NCBI GenBank assembly: GCA_015061185.1
Contig: SUWZ01000025.1
Span: 10,284 to 43,646 of the forward strand
Direction of reading: 5' to 3'
Origin: Bacteroidales bacterium
Lineage (GTDB): Bacteria > Bacteroidota > Bacteroidia > Bacteroidales > Paludibacteraceae
DNA: 33,363 bases
Of this stretch, positions 19,666-33,207 are shown piece by piece. Position 1 is the first letter of the stretch. The number at the start of each line of letters is the position of its first letter. Position numbers and translations under genes: made by a program. The notes under the pieces are model-generated. The model did no database searches. It worked only from the letters and a program-made list of their open reading frames with translations, and had not been told where the DNA came from.

Positions 19666-20439
19666 ATGGTTACAATTACATTAACTGAGTTTAATATCTT
19701 TTTAGGCATAATGTGCATCATTGCCGCCATCGTTTTTATTGCGTTATACTTTGTGGATGCCGGATATGGGATAATGTATAATAAAAAATGGGGACCATCT
19801 GTAAACAATAGAACTGGATGGATTTTAATGGAAGCTCCCGTTTTTATTGTAATGTTAGTTTGTTGGTGGTTTTCTGATCGTAAATTTGAGATTACACCGT
19901 TGATAATATTCTTATTATTTCAGGCACACTACTTTCAACGTTCATTTATTTTCCCTTTTCTGTTCAAATCAAAAAGTAAAATGCCTCTTTCAATTATGAT
20001 GATGGGGGTAATTTTTAATACTTTAAATGGGCTGATTCAGGGTGGCTGGATATTCTATTTATCTCCGGAAAATCGTTACACTACCGAATGGCTACATACC
20101 CCTCAATTTATTTTGGGGACAATTATATTCCTTTGCGGAATGTTTATAAATATTCAATCTGATTACATTGTCAGACACCTGCGAAAACCGGGGGACACCA
20201 ACCATTATCTGCCCAAGGGCGGAATGTTCAACTACGTAACATCAGCCAATTACTTTGGCGAATTGGTAGAATGGATTGGATTTGCCATTTTGACATGGTC
20301 TTGGGCAGGTGCTGTATTTGCAATTTGGACATTTGCCAACTTGGTTCCAAGAGCCAATACCATTTATAAAAAATATCAAAAAATGTTCCCAGAAATGGAA
20401 CATTTAAAATTAAAACGAGTTATTCCATTTATTTATTAA
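19666..20439 (+). CDS. Steroid 5-alpha-reductase homologue (3-oxo-5-alpha-steroid 4-dehydrogenase family)
   Basis: 257 residues with six or seven membrane helices. The second half carries the family signature: INIQSDYIVRHLRKPGD (161-177), LPKGGMFNYVTSANYFGEL (182-200), then VEWIGFAILTWSWAGAVFA and a terminal RVIPFIY. This closely parallels vertebrate SRD5A enzymes. Glu56 (MEAPVF) and Tyr89 (QAHYF) sit where SRD5A2 has Glu57 and Tyr91, the pair that holds the 3-keto group. The expected reaction is NADPH-dependent reduction of the delta-4 double bond of a 3-oxo steroid or bile acid to the 5-alpha form, in the membrane. It is the first gene of a tight operon (four-base gap to the next gene). The actual substrate is inferred, not shown. 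Confidence 0.9.
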   Translation: MVTITLTEFNIFLGIMCIIAAIVFIALYFVDAGYGIMYNKKWGPSVNNRTGWILMEAPVFIVMLVCWWFSDRKFEITPLIIFLLFQAHYFQRSFIFPFLFKSKSKMPLSIMMMGVIFNTLNGLIQGGWIFYLSPENRYTTEWLHTPQFILGTIIFLCGMFINIQSDYIVRHLRKPGDTNHYLPKGGMFNYVTSANYFGELVEWIGFAILTWSWAGAVFAIWTFANLVPRANTIYKKYQKMFPEMEHLKLKRVIPFIY

Positions 20440-20443
20440 TAAC

Positions 20444-21676
20444 ATGAGTACACTATTTACACCGGGAAAAATCGGTCCTATCACATTAAGAAATCGCACA
20501 ATTCGCTCTGCAGCATTTGAAGGAATGTGTCTGGGGAATGCCCCATCAGAACAACTTCTAAAGTATCATCAATCTGTAGCTGCCGGTGGAATTGGCATGA
20601 CAACCATAGCCTACTCCGCAGTTCAGCAAAGCGGTTTATCTTTCCCTCGTCAGCTTTGGCTAAAAAAAGAGAACATCGAAGGGCTTAGAAAAGTAACTGA
20701 TGCAATTCACAAAGAAGGAGCAGCAGCAAGCATCCAAATTGGACATTGCGGAAATATGTCGCACAGAAACATCTGTGGTTGTACTCCAATTTCAGCCTCA
20801 ACAGGATTTAATCTTTACTCTCCCACCTTTGTTAGAGGAATGAGAAAAGATGAGATTGAAGAAACTGCAAAATCATTTGGAGAAGGTGTTAATTTAGCAA
20901 GAGAAGCGGGATTTGACGCAATCGAACTTCATGCAGGTCATGGATATTTAATCAGTCAATTTTTGTCGCCTTCCACCAATCATAGAAAAGACGAATTTGG
21001 AGGCTCATTGCAAAATAGGATGCGCTTTATGGAGATGTCGATGGACCATGTAATGAAAGCAGCCAAAGACGATATGGGCGTACTAGTAAAAATGAATATG
21101 AGAGATTGTTGCCGCAATGGAATGGAAATAGACGAAAGCATTGAAGTGGGTAAAACATTAGAAAAATGCGGAGCCCATGCGTTAGTTTTAAGTAGCGGCT
21201 TTGTCAGTAGTGCGCCAATGGACGTAATGCGTGGAGCTATGCCGTTTAAAACCATGACTCACTATATGGAGGGTTGGATGATGCCTCTATTAGTTAAGTT
21301 AGGAGGACGATTTATGGTTCCGGCACGACCTTTTAAAGAAGCATACTTCTTAGAGGATGCTCTTAAATTTAGAGAAGCACTAAATATGCCACTCTGCTAT
21401 ATTGGTGGTTTAATTTCGAGAGAAAAGATAGACGAGGTTTTAGATAAAGGGTTTGAATTTGTGGCCATGGCAAGAGCTCTCGTAAATGAGCCCGGATTTG
21501 TAAACAGAATGATGGCTGACGAAAAGGCTCGCTCGGCTTGCGACCATTCTAATTACTGCATTGGACGTATGTACACCATAGATATGGCATGTCACAAATG
21601 CCTTTTGGCTCAAGGAGAAAAAATTCCTCAAAAGTTATTGAACGAATTAGAAAATAACAGAAAAAAAGGATATTAA
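20444..21676 (+). CDS. Old Yellow Enzyme-type NADH:flavin oxidoreductase (candidate 5-beta-reductase)
   Basis: 410 residues, a single FMN-binding TIM barrel. Motifs are LFTPGKIGPITLRNRTIRSA at the N-terminus, IQIGHCGNMS, the catalytic segment ELHAGHGYLISQFLSPSTN with RKDEFGGS (161-188), YIGGLISREKIDEVL and FVAMARALVNEPGFV. Four cysteines follow (366, 372, 383, 386), recalling the iron-sulphur region of BaiCD and 2,4-dienoyl-CoA reductases, though the spacing is not the classical one. The C-terminal FAD/NADH domain of those enzymes is absent. Beside a 5-alpha-reductase, reduction of delta-4 3-oxo steroids, probably to the 5-beta form, is a reasonable inference. It is two bases from the next start. 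Confidence 0.85.
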   Translation: MSTLFTPGKIGPITLRNRTIRSAAFEGMCLGNAPSEQLLKYHQSVAAGGIGMTTIAYSAVQQSGLSFPRQLWLKKENIEGLRKVTDAIHKEGAAASIQIGHCGNMSHRNICGCTPISASTGFNLYSPTFVRGMRKDEIEETAKSFGEGVNLAREAGFDAIELHAGHGYLISQFLSPSTNHRKDEFGGSLQNRMRFMEMSMDHVMKAAKDDMGVLVKMNMRDCCRNGMEIDESIEVGKTLEKCGAHALVLSSGFVSSAPMDVMRGAMPFKTMTHYMEGWMMPLLVKLGGRFMVPARPFKEAYFLEDALKFREALNMPLCYIGGLISREKIDEVLDKGFEFVAMARALVNEPGFVNRMMADEKARSACDHSNYCIGRMYTIDMACHKCLLAQGEKIPQKLLNELENNRKKGY

Positions 21677-21677
21677 T

Positions 21678-22514
21678 ATGGCCAAAGCAATTATTACCGG
21701 TGCTTCCGGAGATATGGGGAAAGTAATTGCCCTTGAATTGAGCAAAAAAGGGTATGAAATAATTATGGCGTGTAGAAACATCACTAAATCTACCCCTATT
21801 AGAGAAGAGATAATTGCCAATTCCAATAATCCCAATGTCTCAATAAAACAATTGGATTTATGTTCATTAAAATCGGTTACAGATTTTGCTAAAGAGATTT
21901 TAAAAGAAGGAGATATATCCATTTTAGTTAATAACGCCGGAATCCTTTGCCATGAATATCAAACCACCAAAGAAGGTTATGAGATGAACATTGGAGTCAA
22001 CTATTTGGCTCCAATGTTGCTCTGCCAACTTTTGTTACCATCAATGAATAAAGGTGGTAGAATTATAAATGTGGTTTCTTGCACTACGCAAATAGGGAAA
22101 ATCAACAGAGATATTTTTCATCCTACCTCTAAATTCAGTCGTTTCCCCTTTTATTCTAATTCAAAGCTTGCTTTACTTTTAGGCACCATAGAATTAGCAG
22201 CAAAAGCCAAAGAGCATGGAATCACCATCAACGCAGCAGATCCGGGGATTGTCAGCACAGGAATGATAACAATGGATAAATGGTTTGACCCTATAGCAGA
22301 CCTACTCTTCCGACCGTTTATCCGCACGCCTGAAGAGGGTGCTGCAACAGCGTTACATATTGCTCTCACCGAGGATGGAATCAATAAGAATGGGGCTCTC
22401 TTTGCCTCTTGCAGAGAAAAAAACATATCATCTCGAATTCTTGAATCCGGCAACCGCGATTGGCTAAAATCTGAAACTGATAAAATACTTGACAAGTATT
22501 TGTCAACTCCTTAA
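21678..22514 (+). CDS. Short-chain dehydrogenase/reductase (candidate 3-hydroxysteroid dehydrogenase)
   Basis: 278 residues. The cofactor motif is TGASGDMG (7-14), where the usual TGxxxGIG has Met in place of Ile. An Arg at position 33 after the second strand (ACRNIT) favours NADP(H). NNAG lies at 85-88. The catalytic triad is Ser134 (NVVSC), Tyr159 and Lys163 (YSNSK). ADPGIVSTGM follows. It resembles retinol-dehydrogenase-like SDRs. As the third gene of the operon it would oxidise or reduce the 3-position of the steroid handled by the two preceding reductases. Stereochemistry (3-alpha or 3-beta) cannot be read from the sequence. Confidence 0.85.
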   Translation: MAKAIITGASGDMGKVIALELSKKGYEIIMACRNITKSTPIREEIIANSNNPNVSIKQLDLCSLKSVTDFAKEILKEGDISILVNNAGILCHEYQTTKEGYEMNIGVNYLAPMLLCQLLLPSMNKGGRIINVVSCTTQIGKINRDIFHPTSKFSRFPFYSNSKLALLLGTIELAAKAKEHGITINAADPGIVSTGMITMDKWFDPIADLLFRPFIRTPEEGAATALHIALTEDGINKNGALFASCREKNISSRILESGNRDWLKSETDKILDKYLSTP

Positions 22515-22568: not shown

Positions 22569-23504
22569 TTACATAACAAATTCAATATTGTCAATCCACA
22601 AACAATCTCCTACTGCGCCCACGTAAGCCCCTCCATAACCAGAAGAAAACCGAATTATGATATGAGTCGGATTGTCATTTTCGTCCCCCCATCCTACTTC
22701 ATCAATTGGAACATTCTCACCCTTATCATTTAAACCATACAAAGGGTAACCTTGGTAATTTAAAGACATATACTCCTTGTAATAAGGCTCTTTCGTTATA
22801 TCTCCGTAATGTAATTTTAACTCGTAACCATTCACCCAATCAGTACTTTTTTCAATTCTAATATAAGCAGTTGCAATGCGTTTACTCTTCAGTTTACCAT
22901 CCTCGTTCCAACGTTTTTGAAGAAAAACACAAATTTCAGCGTTATTAGGACCTTCAACATCATCTTTTTTTAGGGCAGATGCTTTTATACGCTTTCCTCC
23001 TGTTTTAGCCTTATAATCAAATTTTAAGGCTTTAATTTTATGCGTAAAAGGCACACCTTGCACCATCTTAGCCATAGGAGAATTTATATTTCTAATCGGT
23101 TCGATAAGATGTCCAACAAAAAGACTCCCTGTTGCAAGAGCAGTAATATGAATAAACCCTAACGCATAAACCTCCTCTAATCGGGTTTCTAATCGAGCAC
23201 AATAACCATTCCCCCTTTTTTCAGGAAAAACGGTACTACTAACCTTACTTATCCCCACAACATTAGCATAAATACTAGATGTTTCCCATGGAGAATCACC
23301 CCTTACCCAAGGAGCTGCCTCTTTTGTAACACAAGGTTTACCTACTTCATAAAGAGTCTTTACTTCGCCTCCAATAATTCTACTCTCCTTGATATCTCTT
23401 TGTATCCAACTATCCATATTCATGTAGGGCAAAGAAACTTGTGAAAAAGAGACAAATGCAATACTTAGCAATGCAATTATAAAAATTAACTTTCTCATTA
23501 TCAT
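22569..23504 (-). CDS. Exported PCMD-domain protein
   Basis: 311 residues from ATG 23504; ATG 23498 (MRKLIFIIALL) is equally possible. The signal peptide ends at about residue 22 (VSFSQ). The remainder fits the PCMD (putative carbohydrate metabolism) domain of Bacteroidota: a beta-rich body with SPWETSSIYANVVG, NGYCARLETR, a FDYKAKTG-type strand and the typical end GGAYVGAVGDCLWIDNIEFV. No catalytic role is known for the domain. It is convergent with the steroid operon and lacks a T9SS tail. It is likely periplasmic or surface-associated. Confidence 0.75.
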   Translation of the reverse strand: MIMRKLIFIIALLSIAFVSFSQVSLPYMNMDSWIQRDIKESRIIGGEVKTLYEVGKPCVTKEAAPWVRGDSPWETSSIYANVVGISKVSSTVFPEKRGNGYCARLETRLEEVYALGFIHITALATGSLFVGHLIEPIRNINSPMAKMVQGVPFTHKIKALKFDYKAKTGGKRIKASALKKDDVEGPNNAEICVFLQKRWNEDGKLKSKRIATAYIRIEKSTDWVNGYELKLHYGDITKEPYYKEYMSLNYQGYPLYGLNDKGENVPIDEVGWGDENDNPTHIIIRFSSGYGGAYVGAVGDCLWIDNIEFVM

Positions 23505-24015: not shown

Positions 24016-24792
24016 ATGTTAGCATTAGTCACAGGAGCAAGTTCGGGCATTGGATTACAATATGCTACAGAATTAGCAAAACAAAAACACGATTTAATAT
24101 TGGTAAGCAATCAAGAAAAAGAGATAGTAGAAGCTGCCCAAAAGTTGTCTCATGAATACGGAATAAAAGCCGTCGGGTTATATAGAAATTTAGCGACAAC
24201 AGAGGCAGCAGAGGAGCTACACTCTTATTGCAAAGAAAATAATTACGACATTGATATTTTGATAAATAATGCAGGAGTCTTTTTCTTCAACGAATTGGTA
24301 AGCACCGAGATGAAACGCATTGAAGTAATGTTGCAACTACATATCATTACGGTCACCAAAATGTGTCGTCTATTTGGAGAAGATATGAAGAAAAAAGGAA
24401 GTGGCTACATTCTAAATATGTCTTCGATGTCTGCTTGGATGACTATGCCGGGCATCAATGTTTATAATGCCAGCAAAGCATTCATTCTTAATTTTTCACG
24501 CTCTTTATGGTACGAATTACACCCACACAACGTAGGAGTTACAGCGATTTGTCCGGGAGCCGTGGATACCGGTCTATACGGACTTAGTGATTATTGGAGA
24601 AAAATAGCTGTAGGATTAGGAATATCAATGCGTCCGGAAAAATTGGCACAAAAAGCACTAAAAAAGATGTATAAAAAGAAAAAACAATACATTCCCGGAT
24701 GGATAAATCATCTATTTATTCCTTTAATTAAACATCTTCCGGATTGGTTTATCTTCTTAGTTATAAAGAAAATAAGTTGTTTCCAAAAATAA
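24016..24792 (+). CDS. Short-chain dehydrogenase/reductase (second SDR)
   Basis: 258 residues. It has the classical cofactor motif TGASSGIG (6-13), NNAG (84-87), Ser137, Tyr150 and Lys154 (YNASK), and ICPGAVDTG. The C-terminal extension (about 200-258) is basic and ends in a hydrophobic stretch (IKHLPDWFIFLVIKKIS), suggesting membrane association. That arrangement resembles DltE/YqjQ-like and 17-beta-HSD/ketoacyl-reductase-like SDRs. Its substrate is unknown. Lying 1.5 kb from the steroid operon, it could add another hydroxysteroid dehydrogenase activity; this rests only on proximity. Confidence 0.85.
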   Translation: MLALVTGASSGIGLQYATELAKQKHDLILVSNQEKEIVEAAQKLSHEYGIKAVGLYRNLATTEAAEELHSYCKENNYDIDILINNAGVFFFNELVSTEMKRIEVMLQLHIITVTKMCRLFGEDMKKKGSGYILNMSSMSAWMTMPGINVYNASKAFILNFSRSLWYELHPHNVGVTAICPGAVDTGLYGLSDYWRKIAVGLGISMRPEKLAQKALKKMYKKKKQYIPGWINHLFIPLIKHLPDWFIFLVIKKISCFQK

Positions 24793-24905: not shown

Positions 24906-24978
24906 GACTCAGTAGCTCAGCTGGTAGAGCAACAGACTCTTAATCTGTGGGTCCAGGGTTCGATCCCCTGCTGGGTCA
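24906..24978 (+). tRNA. tRNA-Lys (anticodon CTT)
   Basis: 73 bases. The acceptor arms GACTCAG/CTGGGTC pair with one G-U. The anticodon loop CTCTTAA sits between CAGA and TCTG, the T arm is GGTTCGATCCC-like, and A is the discriminator. CCA is not encoded. It reads AAG. Confidence 0.95.
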
Positions 24979-25018
24979 CTATTCAATAGGAAGCGTTCTG
25001 TGTAGAAAAGAAAATATT

Positions 25019-25103
25019 GGAGAGATGGTAGAGTGGTCGATTACAGCGGTCTTGAAAACCGCCGTACCGAGAGGTACCGGGGGTTCGAATCCCTCTCTCT
25101 CCG
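25019..25103 (+). tRNA. tRNA-Ser (anticodon TGA)
   Basis: 85 bases with a long variable arm (CGTACCGAGAGGTACCG), as in class II tRNAs. The acceptor arms GGAGAGA/TCTCTCC pair. The loop CTTGAAA between GCGGT and ACCGC gives anticodon TGA, and G is the discriminator. CCA is not encoded. Confidence 0.95.
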
Positions 25104-25108
25104 CAAAG

Positions 25109-25270: not shown

Positions 25271-27052
25271 ATGAAAAACAAATTACAAACTCTTTTATTA
25301 GGAACAATATTGTCTATTTCTAACATTAGTGCATTTGATTATTCCTCTTATTCTGCAGGATATGCTGATTCTGACTATAGAGAAGCCCTAAATATGGGAC
25401 TAAAATTCTTTGGAGGACAAAGATGTGGAAATACTCACAATTGGATGTTGCATGATAATTCCGGTGTTTCAAAGAAATATTGCCATACAAAGGATGGTCA
25501 AGGAAAAGTAAATGGTGGAGGAAATGGGAACTACGACCTCACCGGAGGGTGGCATGATTGCGGCGATCACATAAAAGTGGCAACTACCATGGGATATGCT
25601 GCAACTTCACTGCTTGTGGCTTACGACATCTGGCCGGAGGCTTTTCAAGATAACTATGACGGAGAATATGGTGCCCCCAATGGCATTCCTGACGTCTTGG
25701 ATGAAGCCAAAATTGCCACGGATTACTTCATCAAATCATTTGTTGATGACAATACCTTCGTTTATTATGTCGGAGATCATACAGATCATAATGAATGGAG
25801 AACATCTTCTGCTCAATCTGATTTAAGCGTGGATAAAGGAGGGGATCCTCGAGCAGTTTGGACTACGTCCGACAAGGGTGGTCCTCAAGCGGCAGGGTAC
25901 GCTGCTGCTTTAGCTATCATGGCTCGCAGATACCCCGACAAAGAATACCAAAACAAATGCAAAGAATATGCCATAAAGGCTTACAATTACGCAGTTAAAA
26001 ACAAATCTAACCATGCTACAATTCCAACATTCTATCCCTCTCCAAATTCGGAATGGACTGACGAGCTGAGTTTGGCTGCAATCCTTATATATCAAGCAAC
26101 AGAAGATGAGAAATATAAATCTGACGCTCTTGGTTATTTGCAAGGAAAATGGGAATCCAACTCCCCTCTTGCATGGGATACAATGTCGGATTTTGCCTAC
26201 TACTATATTGTGAAGAGTGATGCTACAGCAGGCAACGGTCAGGGCGGATTAATCGCCGACTTTCTGCGTAAAAATGTTAACGTTTTGCATATCCCAAGTG
26301 GAGAAAAAGATTCCAATGGATTTCCTTACTATAAAAACACTTGGGGAACAAATAAATTGGCATGCGGAGGAGCGGTTGCTGCCGCACTGTTCTTAAAATT
26401 AGTTGAGGATGAGGTAATAGATGCCGGCGATGCAAATTTGAACAAAATTAAAAACTTCAACCTTCGAATTATCGATTACGTATTGGGCAAAAATGAATTC
26501 AATCACACCTTTCTACATGGGTTTAAAGGGGATATGCATTTCAGAATTCACCATAGAAACGCAATGGGACGCAATGACAACCCTCCTACAAATGTGAAAA
26601 ACAGTTGCGACTTCCTATTTGCAAGCGGCGGGCTTATTGGAGGTCCATCTGCTCCGGGAGTTTTTCAAAACATCATCGAAGGAGGTGCATCCTACACAGA
26701 AACGGAGGGAGGATGCGATTATAACGCTCCGTTCGTTGCTGCAATTGCTTCTGTTGTTGCAGAAAAAGATCCTGTAGCGACAACTTCTCTCAATACAACC
26801 AATAATGATTTAAACTACAATGTTTATCCGACTTATTTTGACGACTACATTGTTGCAGATCCAATCGAAACAAACTGTGGAGAAGAAACCTCCATTCAAA
26901 TAATTTCAATAAATGGAACGATTGTAAAGTCTCAAAAGACAAACAAATTTCTTCCGGTAGTTTTCGATACAAGCGATTTACCTAGTGGTAATTACATTTT
27001 ACTTATTACCACTTCGTGTGGGAGTCAAAAAGCCTATAAGGTGGTAAAATAG
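25271..27052 (+). CDS. Glycoside hydrolase family 9 endoglucanase with T9SS sorting domain
   Basis: 593 residues. The signal peptide ends at about residue 21 (SNISA). The GH9 catalytic domain follows directly with no Ig-like module: GGQRCG (48-53), DLTGGWHDCGDHIK (catalytic base Asp96/Asp99; the usual DAGD reads DCGD), GIPDVLDEAK, FHIHHR-type motif FRIHHRNAMG (424-433) and YTETEGGCDYNAPFVAAIA (475-493), where Glu477 or Glu479 should be the acid. Residues about 515-593 are a type A T9SS sorting domain (NVYPTYFDDYIVAD, DLPSGNYILLIT, KAYKVVK). It should hydrolyse beta-1,4-glucan internally or processively after secretion, and may stay bound to the cell surface. It is a single gene with its own promoter and terminator. 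Confidence 0.94.
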   Translation: MKNKLQTLLLGTILSISNISAFDYSSYSAGYADSDYREALNMGLKFFGGQRCGNTHNWMLHDNSGVSKKYCHTKDGQGKVNGGGNGNYDLTGGWHDCGDHIKVATTMGYAATSLLVAYDIWPEAFQDNYDGEYGAPNGIPDVLDEAKIATDYFIKSFVDDNTFVYYVGDHTDHNEWRTSSAQSDLSVDKGGDPRAVWTTSDKGGPQAAGYAAALAIMARRYPDKEYQNKCKEYAIKAYNYAVKNKSNHATIPTFYPSPNSEWTDELSLAAILIYQATEDEKYKSDALGYLQGKWESNSPLAWDTMSDFAYYYIVKSDATAGNGQGGLIADFLRKNVNVLHIPSGEKDSNGFPYYKNTWGTNKLACGGAVAAALFLKLVEDEVIDAGDANLNKIKNFNLRIIDYVLGKNEFNHTFLHGFKGDMHFRIHHRNAMGRNDNPPTNVKNSCDFLFASGGLIGGPSAPGVFQNIIEGGASYTETEGGCDYNAPFVAAIASVVAEKDPVATTSLNTTNNDLNYNVYPTYFDDYIVADPIETNCGEETSIQIISINGTIVKSQKTNKFLPVVFDTSDLPSGNYILLITTSCGSQKAYKVVK

Positions 27053-28417: not shown

Positions 28418-29980
28418 TTACAGGTCTTCAATCAAATACTTGCCTATATTCCTTGTCTCGCCACTGAAATTCGCACCAATCAAAATAATCTTCTTGCCGG
28501 TTGCCATAAATGGCTGAACATAGTTCTTCTTGATTTGCTCCATCGCCTCTTCTGCTGTGCCGTTATATTTAAACTCGAAAATATAGACATAATCAGCCGT
28601 CTCTATGGTCATATCTACTATGCCGTTGGATGTATGAAACTCTGCCTTGGTATAGAGACCACAAAGATTGCACAAGATGAAAAGCACATTCTGATAGTGA
28701 TTTTCGGTATCTTTGATGAGGTCATACGGAGTGTTGGCAAAGAATGATTCCAAACGGTTCATGAAAGCTTCCGCGTCTCCTGACCTCACCTCCTCTACAA
28801 AACACTTTATTTCAAAAGCAGCAGCACTTGGTCGGACTGATGTGTAATGCGGTATCAGATAGTACAGAAATCCGCGTTTAACCTCCTCATTAGGGAAATC
28901 CAACTTATACAACTTCATACGAGACTTGTATTCCTTGATTGTCAAATACCCACATTTATACAGCACCGGAACTGAATAAGCTGAAGTCAACCATGAATTC
29001 CCTTTCAGCGTATATGGGTCTATCACAGCTCCAATAGTTGTTTCTAAGTTACAATCATCCCTTTTTAGCAATTTTACAAGATAATTTGGAGAGCCTGACT
29101 GAAACCAATAACTATCGAAATCATTCTTGCTAAATGAATTGAGTAAACTCCATGGGTTATAAACACCTTGAGTGTTCTCCGAGAAATGGTAGCCATTATA
29201 AAATTTGTCTATTTTACTGTACGCATCTTCAATCGTAATTTTTTGTTTATCAGCTAATCTGTGTATATATGGGGCAAGCACTCCTTTCAGATCATCATCC
29301 AAAAAGGCGCAAATATCATTATATCGTCTGTCAATAGAAATGTCTGTCAAATTGTTTAAATCGCCAAAAACCGTCTCCGGTCTAAATCCGGTTATTCCAA
29401 CTAAAAGAGCAAATTTGAAGTAGCCATCCATGCTTTTTAAAGGACTAAAGAAACCCATTAAAATATCAAGATACTCTCTTTGCAAAGTTTCATTGCCAAT
29501 CGTCTCAAGCATCGGCTTGTCAACCTCATCTACAAGTACCACCACTCGCTGACCACACTTCTCGTATGCTCGTTTGATAACACCTTGAAACCTTGAATTG
29601 ATGGACGTCTCATCTTCACATCTTCCATACTGGTCTTCCCATTTCGACAAATAATAAGAGAGGTGTTTTTCTAACGCACTTCTGTCGTTGTAGAGACACG
29701 CATTAAAATCCAAGTGCAGCACCGGATGCACCGTCCATTTCTGCTCCAACTGTTCCACTGCCAAACCTTTGAACAACTCCTTCTTACCAAGAAAATAGGC
29801 TTTCAAAGTACTGATAAGCAAACTTTTACCGAATCGACGGGGGCGAGATAGGAAATAGTAACGACCAGTGGAGGCAAGACTATGCATCAAAGCCGTTTTA
29901 TCTACGTACAAGAAGTCTTCTTTACGTAATTTCTCAAAATCCTGAATACCGATTGGCAAGTTTTTTAACGTCTGCTCCAT
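28418..29980 (-). CDS. AAA-ATPase-like protein with C-terminal PD-(D/E)XK nuclease domain (first copy)
   Basis: 520 residues. The N-terminus LPIGIQDFEKLRKEDFLYVDKT is typical of the AAA-ATPase_like family (PF09820). The P-loop is variant, SRPRRFGKSLLI (about 44-55), and the Walker B region is VVVLVDEVDKPM. The C-terminal PDDEXK_9-type domain (PF08011) has GIVDMTIETAD then YIFEFKYNGT, giving the D...ExK core. The family is greatly expanded in Bacteroidota and its function is not established. It is about as long as known members, so it looks intact. It has its own promoter box. The gene reads as richer in G and C than its housekeeping neighbours, hinting at transfer. Confidence 0.88.
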   Translation of the reverse strand: MEQTLKNLPIGIQDFEKLRKEDFLYVDKTALMHSLASTGRYYFLSRPRRFGKSLLISTLKAYFLGKKELFKGLAVEQLEQKWTVHPVLHLDFNACLYNDRSALEKHLSYYLSKWEDQYGRCEDETSINSRFQGVIKRAYEKCGQRVVVLVDEVDKPMLETIGNETLQREYLDILMGFFSPLKSMDGYFKFALLVGITGFRPETVFGDLNNLTDISIDRRYNDICAFLDDDLKGVLAPYIHRLADKQKITIEDAYSKIDKFYNGYHFSENTQGVYNPWSLLNSFSKNDFDSYWFQSGSPNYLVKLLKRDDCNLETTIGAVIDPYTLKGNSWLTSAYSVPVLYKCGYLTIKEYKSRMKLYKLDFPNEEVKRGFLYYLIPHYTSVRPSAAAFEIKCFVEEVRSGDAEAFMNRLESFFANTPYDLIKDTENHYQNVLFILCNLCGLYTKAEFHTSNGIVDMTIETADYVYIFEFKYNGTAEEAMEQIKKNYVQPFMATGKKIILIGANFSGETRNIGKYLIEDL

Positions 29981-31620: not shown

Positions 31621-33207
31621 TTATTCGCCCTCCATCCGTTCGATCTTACAACTGTGTTCCTTTGTCTTTTCGTCATAACTGATACCAACGAAAAGCAGGT
31701 CGCCTTTGTAGTTGTTCAACGCTTGACAATAGTTTTTTTCCTTTATCTGCTGCAAGGCACTTCCCGCACTTTTGTTATGTTTTAATTCTATCACCATAGC
31801 GGGGATGTTGGGTAGATAGGGTATTAAAACCAAGTCTGCGTATCCTTTGCCCGTAGGAAGTTCCTTGACAAGCGTATAGCGCGTGTTTGCGTAAAAATAT
31901 GCCAAACAGATGGCACTTTGAAAACAATGCTCATCATTGTAGGTCAGTGGGTTGGTCACCTCTGTATGGGCTGCATCGAGGGCCTTTGCCACAACCTCCT
32001 CGTTGCCTGCAATAGTTGCGTCGAGGAGCTTTTTAGAAGAGTTGATAATCTCCATAATTGGAGCATAATTCTCCTCGTCGTCAATAGAATTTACCCACTC
32101 TTGACGCACCTCCTCATTCGGGATGCAGCAAGTTTTATCTTTTTTGTTGTATGAGAGGTAACCCAAATGTATCAAATAAGTGAATGCATTGTCCTTATTT
32201 GTAATAGATTGAAGCGTGTTCTGAAATTTCTTCACATTCACCGGAACACTTTCTCCGGAAATCATTTTGATGACATCCTGCTTGATGCCTTTGAAATCCA
32301 TCATGATATAGTCTTTCAGAGCCTCGAACGAACCTGTGGCAGACCAGTAACTTTCGAACTCATGATTCATCATGGAAGAGACAACTGACAACGGGTTGTA
32401 AATATCTATGGAATCAGTAAGTCTGTAACCATCGTACCAACGAGCGCACTCATCCTTATCCATGCCGTATTCATCGCACAAGGCTTCAACCTCCTCCCTT
32501 GTAAAACCGACATGACCTGACAAACTCCCGGACTGCAACATGGTGTATTCCGTAAATTCGTTCAGTTTCGACTGCACTTTGTCCCGTACGATTGGTATGA
32601 TGCCGGTAATGTACGCAAGAGCAATAGCAGGACGAATAGTCGTCCCTTTGAACAGAGCATTTAATAGACTTAAATAATTGTCGAACAATTTATGTGGCAC
32701 CTGCTCGCGAATCAGCACATCATATTCATCTATGATGATAACAAACTTCTCTCCTAATTGCTTATAAATTTGTAAAATACACGAAGATATTGAGTTGGTA
32801 TCAAGTTCAATATCCGGATACTGCTCCTTAAATTCGTCCGTCACAGCCTTTTGCATGAACGAAATCAAGTCCATTCCCCAATCCTCAGTTTTGCTTTTCT
32901 GATACAATTCATTCAAATCCAACTTAATAACATTGAACTTGTTCAAATATTTATCAAAACCTGCCGTCTGACCAAACTTCATTTGACTGAAGACCTCTCT
33001 GGTGTCGCAACCCTTTGAGTAGTAAGCAGAAATCATGTTGCCTGCCATGCTCTTTCCGAAACGGCGAGGACGAGAAAGGCAAACAAAATTCCCTTGACTG
33101 CTCACCAACTTATTAAGCTCTGCAAGAATCAAAGATTTGTCCACATAAATTTCTGAGTTCAAACCAATTTGGAACGCATCCGAGTTCGGATTAAGATATA
33201 GACCCAT
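31621..33207 (-). CDS. AAA-ATPase-like protein with C-terminal PD-(D/E)XK nuclease domain (second copy)
   Basis: 528 residues. It has the same architecture as the first copy but is strongly diverged. The N-terminus is FQIGLNSEIYVDKSLILAEL. The variant P-loop is SRPRRFGKSMAG (about 44-55) and Walker B is FVIIIDEYDVLI. The nuclease-like core is KGYADLVLIP then AMVIELKHNKSAG (D...ExK). The sequence supports an intact gene. A near-consensus -7 box (TATCTTTA) lies at 33233-33240. It sits between glycosyltransferase 3'-end copies 2 and 3. The family's function is unknown; roles in mobile elements or defence are possible. Confidence 0.88.
   Translation of the reverse strand: MGLYLNPNSDAFQIGLNSEIYVDKSLILAELNKLVSSQGNFVCLSRPRRFGKSMAGNMISAYYSKGCDTREVFSQMKFGQTAGFDKYLNKFNVIKLDLNELYQKSKTEDWGMDLISFMQKAVTDEFKEQYPDIELDTNSISSCILQIYKQLGEKFVIIIDEYDVLIREQVPHKLFDNYLSLLNALFKGTTIRPAIALAYITGIIPIVRDKVQSKLNEFTEYTMLQSGSLSGHVGFTREEVEALCDEYGMDKDECARWYDGYRLTDSIDIYNPLSVVSSMMNHEFESYWSATGSFEALKDYIMMDFKGIKQDVIKMISGESVPVNVKKFQNTLQSITNKDNAFTYLIHLGYLSYNKKDKTCCIPNEEVRQEWVNSIDDEENYAPIMEIINSSKKLLDATIAGNEEVVAKALDAAHTEVTNPLTYNDEHCFQSAICLAYFYANTRYTLVKELPTGKGYADLVLIPYLPNIPAMVIELKHNKSAGSALQQIKEKNYCQALNNYKGDLLFVGISYDEKTKEHSCKIERMEGE

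Follow-up and report, generated by a model that had tools for sequence, protein, structure and literature searches.

The locus described here lies in a stretch of 33,363 nucleotides (hereafter, the window; contig SUWZ01000025.1, positions 10,284 to 43,646, of the Bacteroidales bacterium assembly GCA_015061185.1, family Paludibacteraceae), which is part of contig C9 of the genome designated G000 (2.9 Mb, 96 contigs, 99.98% complete). Pfam matches of three adjoining open reading frames (ORFs) on the plus strand confirmed the enzyme classes that an earlier note on this DNA had assigned to a three-gene operon, namely a steroid 5-alpha-reductase (5AR), an Old Yellow Enzyme flavoprotein (OYE) and a short-chain dehydrogenase/reductase (SDR), here called SDR3 (Table 1). 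The note had placed four and two bases between these genes; the first gap is indeed 4 bases, but the second measured 1 base. It had also left out two linked downstream genes, which code for a second SDR (SDR4), located 1.5 kb past SDR3, and for a PCMD-domain protein in between. We consider it probable that the genes form a steroid A-ring remodeling cassette of gut Bacteroidales, in which 5-beta to 5-alpha inversion and C3 reduction would proceed in series.

Table 1. Genes of the cluster and their positions in the window.
Feature	Position	Strand	Details
Steroid 5-alpha-reductase (5AR), SRD5A-like membrane protein	19666-20439	+	257 aa, ATG; PF02544 Steroid_dh E 2.6e-46
Old Yellow Enzyme flavoprotein (OYE)	20444-21676	+	410 aa, ATG; PF00724 Oxidored_FMN E 2e-50
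SDR3, putative 3-beta-hydroxysteroid dehydrogenase	21678-22514	+	278 aa, ATG; PF00106 adh_short E 5.3e-28
PCMD-domain protein, likely leader peptide	22569-23504	-	PF13201 E 2.4e-22
SDR4, second SDR; putative 3-alpha- or second hydroxysteroid dehydrogenase	24016-24792	+	PF00106 E 7.8e-42

The 5AR protein scored 157.8 bits against PF02544, for which the cut-off is 22.6, and thus belongs to this family. When the PDB was searched with phmmer, 5AR matched the bacterial structure 7c83 at 194 bits (E 2.4e-56) and human SRD5A2 (7bw1) at 145 bits (E 2.7e-41), whereas the enoyl-CoA reductase 22of was a far weaker match (35 bits, E 1.1e-7). The human protein could be matched over nearly its whole length and shares the key residues, but its gene does not have the same operon partners, and 5AR is closer to the bacterial structure. 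The earlier note had spoken of a ‘vertebrate-like SRD5A signature’ with a Glu and a Tyr; these residues are indeed present, but ‘vertebrate-like’ is too loose a term, since the bacterial match scores higher than the human one. To describe conservation, 101 rows (95 distinct) were aligned, comprising the window and 100 of 116 loci (L032-L147), the other 16 having been dropped by ORF or clustering filters. E56 and Y89, which align with E57 and Y91 of SRD5A2 in 7bw1 and presumably hold the steroid 3-ketone, were invariant in 101 of 101 rows. The same was true of D166, R173, E199, E202, N225 and R229, while N162 (100 rows), R170 (98) and N195 (96) were near-invariant.

In the OYE alignment (85 rows, 79 distinct, with 4 short ones left out), H163, H166 and Y168 were identical in all 85 rows, placing the protein among the OYEs. 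Three C-terminal cysteines, C366, C372 and C383, were likewise invariant (85/85) with the spacing C-x5-C-x10-C (residues 366-383, window ~21539-21592). They take the place of the four-Cys cluster motif usual in OYE-type delta4-reductases, and the trio could possibly be a reduced motif of the Fe-S type. The AlphaFold model of the protein (pLDDT 90) was matched best in Foldseek by 2-naphthoyl-CoA reductase 6qkg, over 424 columns, followed by single-domain ene-reductases; by sequence, the closest solved OYEs are general ene-reductases. Among NCBIfam models, that of the mycofactocin OYE was the best, reaching 177 of 793 bits. The BaiCD equivalog (NF041087) was considered and rejected, as OYE scored 173.6 bits against a cut-off of 825 and covered only positions 3-258 of the 642 in the profile. 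The window OYE has the catalytic domain and the His-His-Tyr motif in common with BaiCD and with further delta4-reductases of the OYE type in Firmicutes, such as ci2350 and OsrB; however, the window protein is 410 amino acids long, and the C-terminal part of BaiCD is not matched in it. By its sequence, it is a relative of BaiCD and not a member of that group.

Both remaining enzymes are classical SDRs. All 50 rows of the SDR3 alignment (45 distinct) share S134, Y159 and K163, with G8 and G14 also present in SDR3; in SDR4, G7, G11, G13, S137, Y150 and K154 were identical in all 68 rows. In a nine-row clade with support of 99/95, the sister group of SDR3 consists of eight SDRs from Parabacteroides and related clusters, to which SDR3 is at most 50% identical. 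Since its counterpart is the sole SDR found beside OYE in Parabacteroides massiliensis (L082), SDR3 was taken as the putative 3-beta-hydroxysteroid dehydrogenase (3-beta-HSDH). The SDR that comes right behind OYE in G041 (L047), a genome of the same family, shares 72% identity with SDR4.

The distribution of the cluster was studied in an order sample of 295 genomes and by a scan of contigs. PF02544 was found in 116 genomes of the order sample, 35 of which, including G000, carry a window-type 5AR, defined as at least 118 bits and at least 50% identity to that of the window. OYE was present in the available flanks of 29 of 36 window-type loci from the 34 other genomes. The more distant 5AR type (27 loci, L002-L028, 33-46% identical) had OYE in none of its 27 flanks, which extended to at most 1.5 kb, and two of these loci had weak SDR matches only. 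The contig scan confirmed at least 578 relatives, of which the best 80 named loci were used for all such counts. In 71 of them 5AR was followed by OYE, a few of these pairs being 0.5-2.4 kb apart, and in 49 OYE was followed by SDR4. Since 71 of 80 contrasts with 0 of 27 distant loci, the neighborhood of 5AR and OYE is not due to chance. The arrangements were 5AR>OYE>SDR4>SDR3 (26 loci), 5AR>OYE>SDR4 (22), 5AR>OYE (11), 5AR alone (6), SDR4>5AR>OYE>SDR3 (6), 5AR>OYE>SDR3 (5) and four single patterns; it is to be noted that absences are upper bounds, because some loci stop at contig ends. Carriers with strain names include Coprobacter secundus (L080), P. massiliensis, Sanguibacteroides sp. GM7 and Heminiphilus faecis, and an Odoribacter metagenome-assembled genome (MAG; L078) also carries 5AR followed by OYE. 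The nearest named 5AR relatives were those of two Paludibacteraceae MAGs, L068 (74%) and L069 (77%, from horse faeces). The cluster is thus widespread in Bacteroidales, and what the earlier note had described as a version in a different genomic setting is no rarity. One contig with a Bacteroidales-like cassette is titled Pseudoflavonifractor sp. (L125), by horizontal transfer or mis-binning. In one scan of viral contigs, 13 stretches fit the pattern and none encoded a relative.

A cluster of this kind is already known from the literature. Parabacteroides merdae, Odoribacter laneus and Bacteroides dorei convert 3-oxo-delta4-lithocholic acid (3-oxo-delta4-LCA) to isoalloLCA, disruption of the P. 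merdae 5AR stopped the formation of alloLCA derivatives, and the 5AR gene was found in one cluster with those of a predicted 3-beta-HSDH and of an NADH:flavin oxidoreductase in Bacteroidota, according to a review (PMC10382948). The published series runs from 3-oxoLCA to 3-oxo-delta4-LCA by a 5-beta-reductase (5BR), then to 3-oxoalloLCA by 5AR, and finally to isoalloLCA by 3-beta-HSDH (PMC10672800), and the same order of 5BR, 5AR and 3-beta-HSDH was given for deoxycholic acid (PMC9645264). The window operon has these three gene classes in common with the Bacteroidota cluster; its 5AR and OYE genes adjoin, with only the 4-base gap; its order 5AR>OYE>SDR3 is also that of P. massiliensis; and its SDR3 falls in the same supported clade as the SDRs of Parabacteroides and related clusters. 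The likeness that the earlier note had drawn was therefore corroborated, and the core operon is a member of this described gut Bacteroidales cluster type, not a new one. It differs in that the host is Paludibacteraceae-like, SDR4 is displaced, with a PCMD gene on the opposite strand in front of it, and 5AR and OYE group apart from those of other Paludibacteraceae.

A further neighbor is the PCMD gene. Its product scored 80.3 bits against PF13201 (cut-off 28), making it a member of that family, and its N terminus, read by eye, is hydrophobic and leader-like. Of 148 loci, 22 (that of the window included) have a homologue within the cluster or next to it; these comprise 18 of the best 80 named loci and 3 of the 36 in the order sample. 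Its position varies: it may lie upstream, in either orientation relative to the cluster, follow SDR4, or stand between SDR4 and either SDR3 or 5AR. Among the 5AR-bearing genomes of genus g191, its distance to 5AR is 21-279 bases in 15 of 16. PCMD is single copy in 41 of the 46 PCMD-bearing genomes of the order sample, and by our own arithmetic about 0.3 in 80 would therefore be expected within 5 kb by chance, against the 18 of 80 seen; chance neighborhood was rejected. Beyond direct linkage, PCMD was present in 28 of 35 order-sample genomes with window-type 5AR versus 16 of 260 others (Fisher p 1.5e-21), counted at E 1e-30, such that the weaker rows of G183 and G224, both lacking window-type 5AR, were dropped. 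In a family sample of 200 genomes, the counts were 77 of 87 with 5AR versus 19 of 113 without (p 9.4e-26), where nine genomes having weaker 5AR matches only (E 2e-56 or worse) were counted as without, and two 5AR genes with an in-frame stop as present. These genome-level statistics treat genomes as independent although they are related; when counted by eye at the level of genera in the family, PCMD accompanied 12 of 14 with 5AR versus 3 of 19 without (p 9e-5). Against the partnership stand the occurrence of PCMD without 5AR, for example in genus g201, its absence from 10 of 87 family genomes with 5AR, and the small share of genomes with both in which the two genes are no more than 2.4 kb apart, namely 4 of 28 in the order sample and 17 of 77 in the family sample. 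Nonetheless, PCMD is a statistically firm partner of the 5AR cluster, and a literature search found no paper on this link.

The predicted PCMD structure is a beta-sandwich (pLDDT 77, the other four models being 51-60). Its only matches under E 0.001 were six chains titled putative glycoside hydrolase, with TM scores of 0.42-0.45, and weak carbohydrate-binding modules came after them. The nearest folds were 4het (BT3745), 3hbz (BT_2081), 4jrl (BACOVA_00087) and 3s30 (BVU_0247), at E 4.0e-8 to 3.3e-7. The solved PCMD-like folds are titled only as putative glycoside hydrolases, whereas the subfamily of the window is linked to steroid reductases.

Within the genus of the window (16 genomes), PCMD and SDR4 form a divergent pair, 0.2-5.2 kb apart, in eight genomes; in the other eight, either the two lie on separate contigs or one of them was absent. 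Among the eight genomes with the divergent pair, five have 5AR at 46-52 kb from PCMD. All of 5AR, SDR3, PCMD and SDR4 come together only in G000 and its sister G434, the proteins of which are 94-98% identical, and from the size of the gap we infer that OYE is also present in G434. When the window, L068 and L069 were set against the other Paludibacteraceae-titled loci and G041, a single clade was rejected both for OYE and for 5AR (approximately unbiased test, p 0.0025 and 4.9e-5, respectively), with the group chosen after the OYE tree and the OYE of G245 outside the set. Since the 5AR and OYE of the window do not form one clade with the others of the family, these two genes were probably gained or replaced by horizontal transfer, and would later have been placed by the PCMD-SDR4 pair.

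With the gene classes, catalytic residues and conserved linkage in hand, we infer the direction, substrate and cofactor of the pathway and the roles of SDR3, SDR4 and PCMD as follows. OYE would interconvert the 3-oxo-5-beta and 3-oxo-delta4 forms of a steroid; 5AR, in the membrane, would use NADPH to reduce the delta4 bond to a flat 5-alpha product; and SDR3 would turn the 3-ketone into a 3-beta-alcohol, such that a kinked 5-beta bile acid, e.g., 3-oxo-lithocholic acid, could become isoallo-lithocholic acid. SDR4 could feed the route by 3-alpha-oxidation, which would make the whole path redox-neutral, or it may act on another ketone, and binding or handling of substrate outside the cytoplasm is the probable role of the PCMD protein. 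Given the published enzyme order, the enzymes of the operon most likely act one after the other, inverting 5-beta to 5-alpha steroids. Several observations weigh against this reading. The role of the NADH:flavin oxidoreductase as 5-beta-reductase was put forward as a hypothesis only (PMC10382948), and because P. merdae is absent from the loci, equivalence to its cluster rests on P. massiliensis and the reviews. Only G000 and G434 carry SDR3 among the 16 genomes of the genus (E 1e-30), while L068 and L069 have the 5AR-OYE pair with neither SDR within 5 kb and no choloylglycine hydrolase match. Lastly, at least 12 of the best 80 named loci are from sites titled rumen, reticulum, omasum or abomasum, i.e., from above the bile duct.

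The earlier note had pictured a choice between 5-alpha and 5-beta products, which amounts to OYE and 5AR being parallel, alternative reductases of 3-oxo-delta4 steroids. An OYE-family enzyme of Clostridium innocuum does take progesterone to its 5-beta form (PMC12238238), and the OYE reaction may be reversible. However, the two reviews derive the delta4 intermediate from 5BR in Bacteroidota (PMC10672800, PMC9645264), a series is the better fit for one short operon that includes a presumed 3-beta-HSDH, and of the BaiCD model only the first 258 positions are matched by the window OYE; we regard parallel action of the two as unlikely. It is more improbable still, to the point of being remote, that the genes merely look steroid-like and serve lipid enoyl reduction or xenobiotic enoates. 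OYEs and SDRs are indeed promiscuous superfamilies, and the OYE is closest to general ene-reductases among solved sequences, but the 194 and 145 bits of 5AR against steroid 5-alpha-reductases far exceed the 35 bits against the enoyl-CoA reductase, its presumed steroid-contacting residues are invariant, and the P. merdae disruption already makes steroid turnover by 5AR likely (PMC10382948).

A different question is which steroid is used, even by the same enzymes in series. Bile acids are favored by the published cluster and by a gene elsewhere in the genome: G000 has one choloylglycine hydrolase homologue (G000:C80:391-1314, L148; PF02275) with an N-terminal leader as judged by eye; its nearest PDB relative is 2bjf (E 1.2e-49), the Clostridium perfringens enzyme, and the best penicillin V acylase gave E 1.9e-36. 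The homologue was found in two of 11 genomes, Coprobacter secundus and the Odoribacter MAG. A strong, near full-length PF02275 match (E 8.3e-37 or lower) occurred in 0 of 13 forestomach versus 7 of 17 other genomes (Fisher p 0.010); these 30 of the best 80 genomes were hand-picked with completeness not given, the threshold was set after the rows had been seen, the 17 include isolates with larger genomes, and 6 of the 13 do show a weak match over part of the length. The 13 are the 12 so titled plus L084, which we assumed to be rumen by its RUG prefix. Bile acids are unlikely as substrate in the rumen-type carriers, and it is conceivable, though not the likelier case, that, at least in the forestomach relatives, the enzymes naturally act on sterols of plants, on steroidal sapogenins or on further 3-oxo-delta4 steroids from the diet. 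Of the sapogenins, tigogenin is the 5-alpha form. Rumen microbes convert diosgenin to epismilagenin, and smilagenone, smilagenin and tigogenin, thus both 5-beta and 5-alpha products, arise from sheep gut microbes (PMC5535167, PMC10385484). The cassette would have the right reaction set for such saturation and epimerization of diosgenin, and the forestomach titles and the lack of strong hydrolase matches among those genomes fit with it. On the other hand, 13 of the best 80 loci are titled cecum, colon or rectum, G000 itself has the hydrolase homologue, and the comparison suffers from the post hoc threshold, the picked genomes and the weak partial matches. To our knowledge, no enzyme of this kind has been described for sapogenins, and a literature search on the subject found nothing relevant.

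The rest of the neighborhood is briefly described. A promoter pattern scan gave no match upstream of 5AR, and a single short match before SDR4 and another before PCMD were judged uninformative. Only two tRNAs in the window reached Rfam gathering scores; these genes, tRNA-Lys (ctt) and tRNA-Ser (tga), lie at 24906-25104 (+), between SDR4 and a gene of glycosyl hydrolase family 9 (25271-27052, +; E 3.5e-71). The product of the latter is a probable exported cellulase, and its C-terminal stretch resembles a secretion sorting domain at 26.0 bits, below the cut-off of 27. Two proteins encoded at 28418-29980 and 31621-33207 (-) resemble the AAA-ATPase/PD-DEXK nuclease fusions common in Bacteroidales.

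What the analysis adds is the PCMD partner, the displaced fourth enzyme, a probable mosaic origin and the substrate question in the forestomach. According to reviews, isoallo bile acids hold back Gram-positives such as Clostridioides difficile and favor regulatory T cells. In dairy cows, a survey reported isoalloLCA from the large intestine, and its annotation found neither 3-alpha- nor 3-beta-HSDH in cow MAGs (PMC9750977); the 5AR-OYE pair occurs in two loci with dairy cattle in their titles, one from the colon (L077) and one from the rectum (L100, which ends within OYE). The cassette in herbivore-gut genera thus lengthens the list of likely isoallo producers, and the PCMD link provides a testable context for a family without known function. 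The forestomach cassettes pose the substrate question directly. Speculatively, and with rather low confidence, the cluster may form half of a larger steroid system with an exported PCMD binding or release factor, which in forestomach Bacteroidales without bile salt hydrolase would act on plant sterols or sapogenins and be the source of the conversion of diosgenin to smilagenin and tigogenin. If true, the cassette would be the origin of the rumen conversion that underlies saponin photosensitization of sheep.

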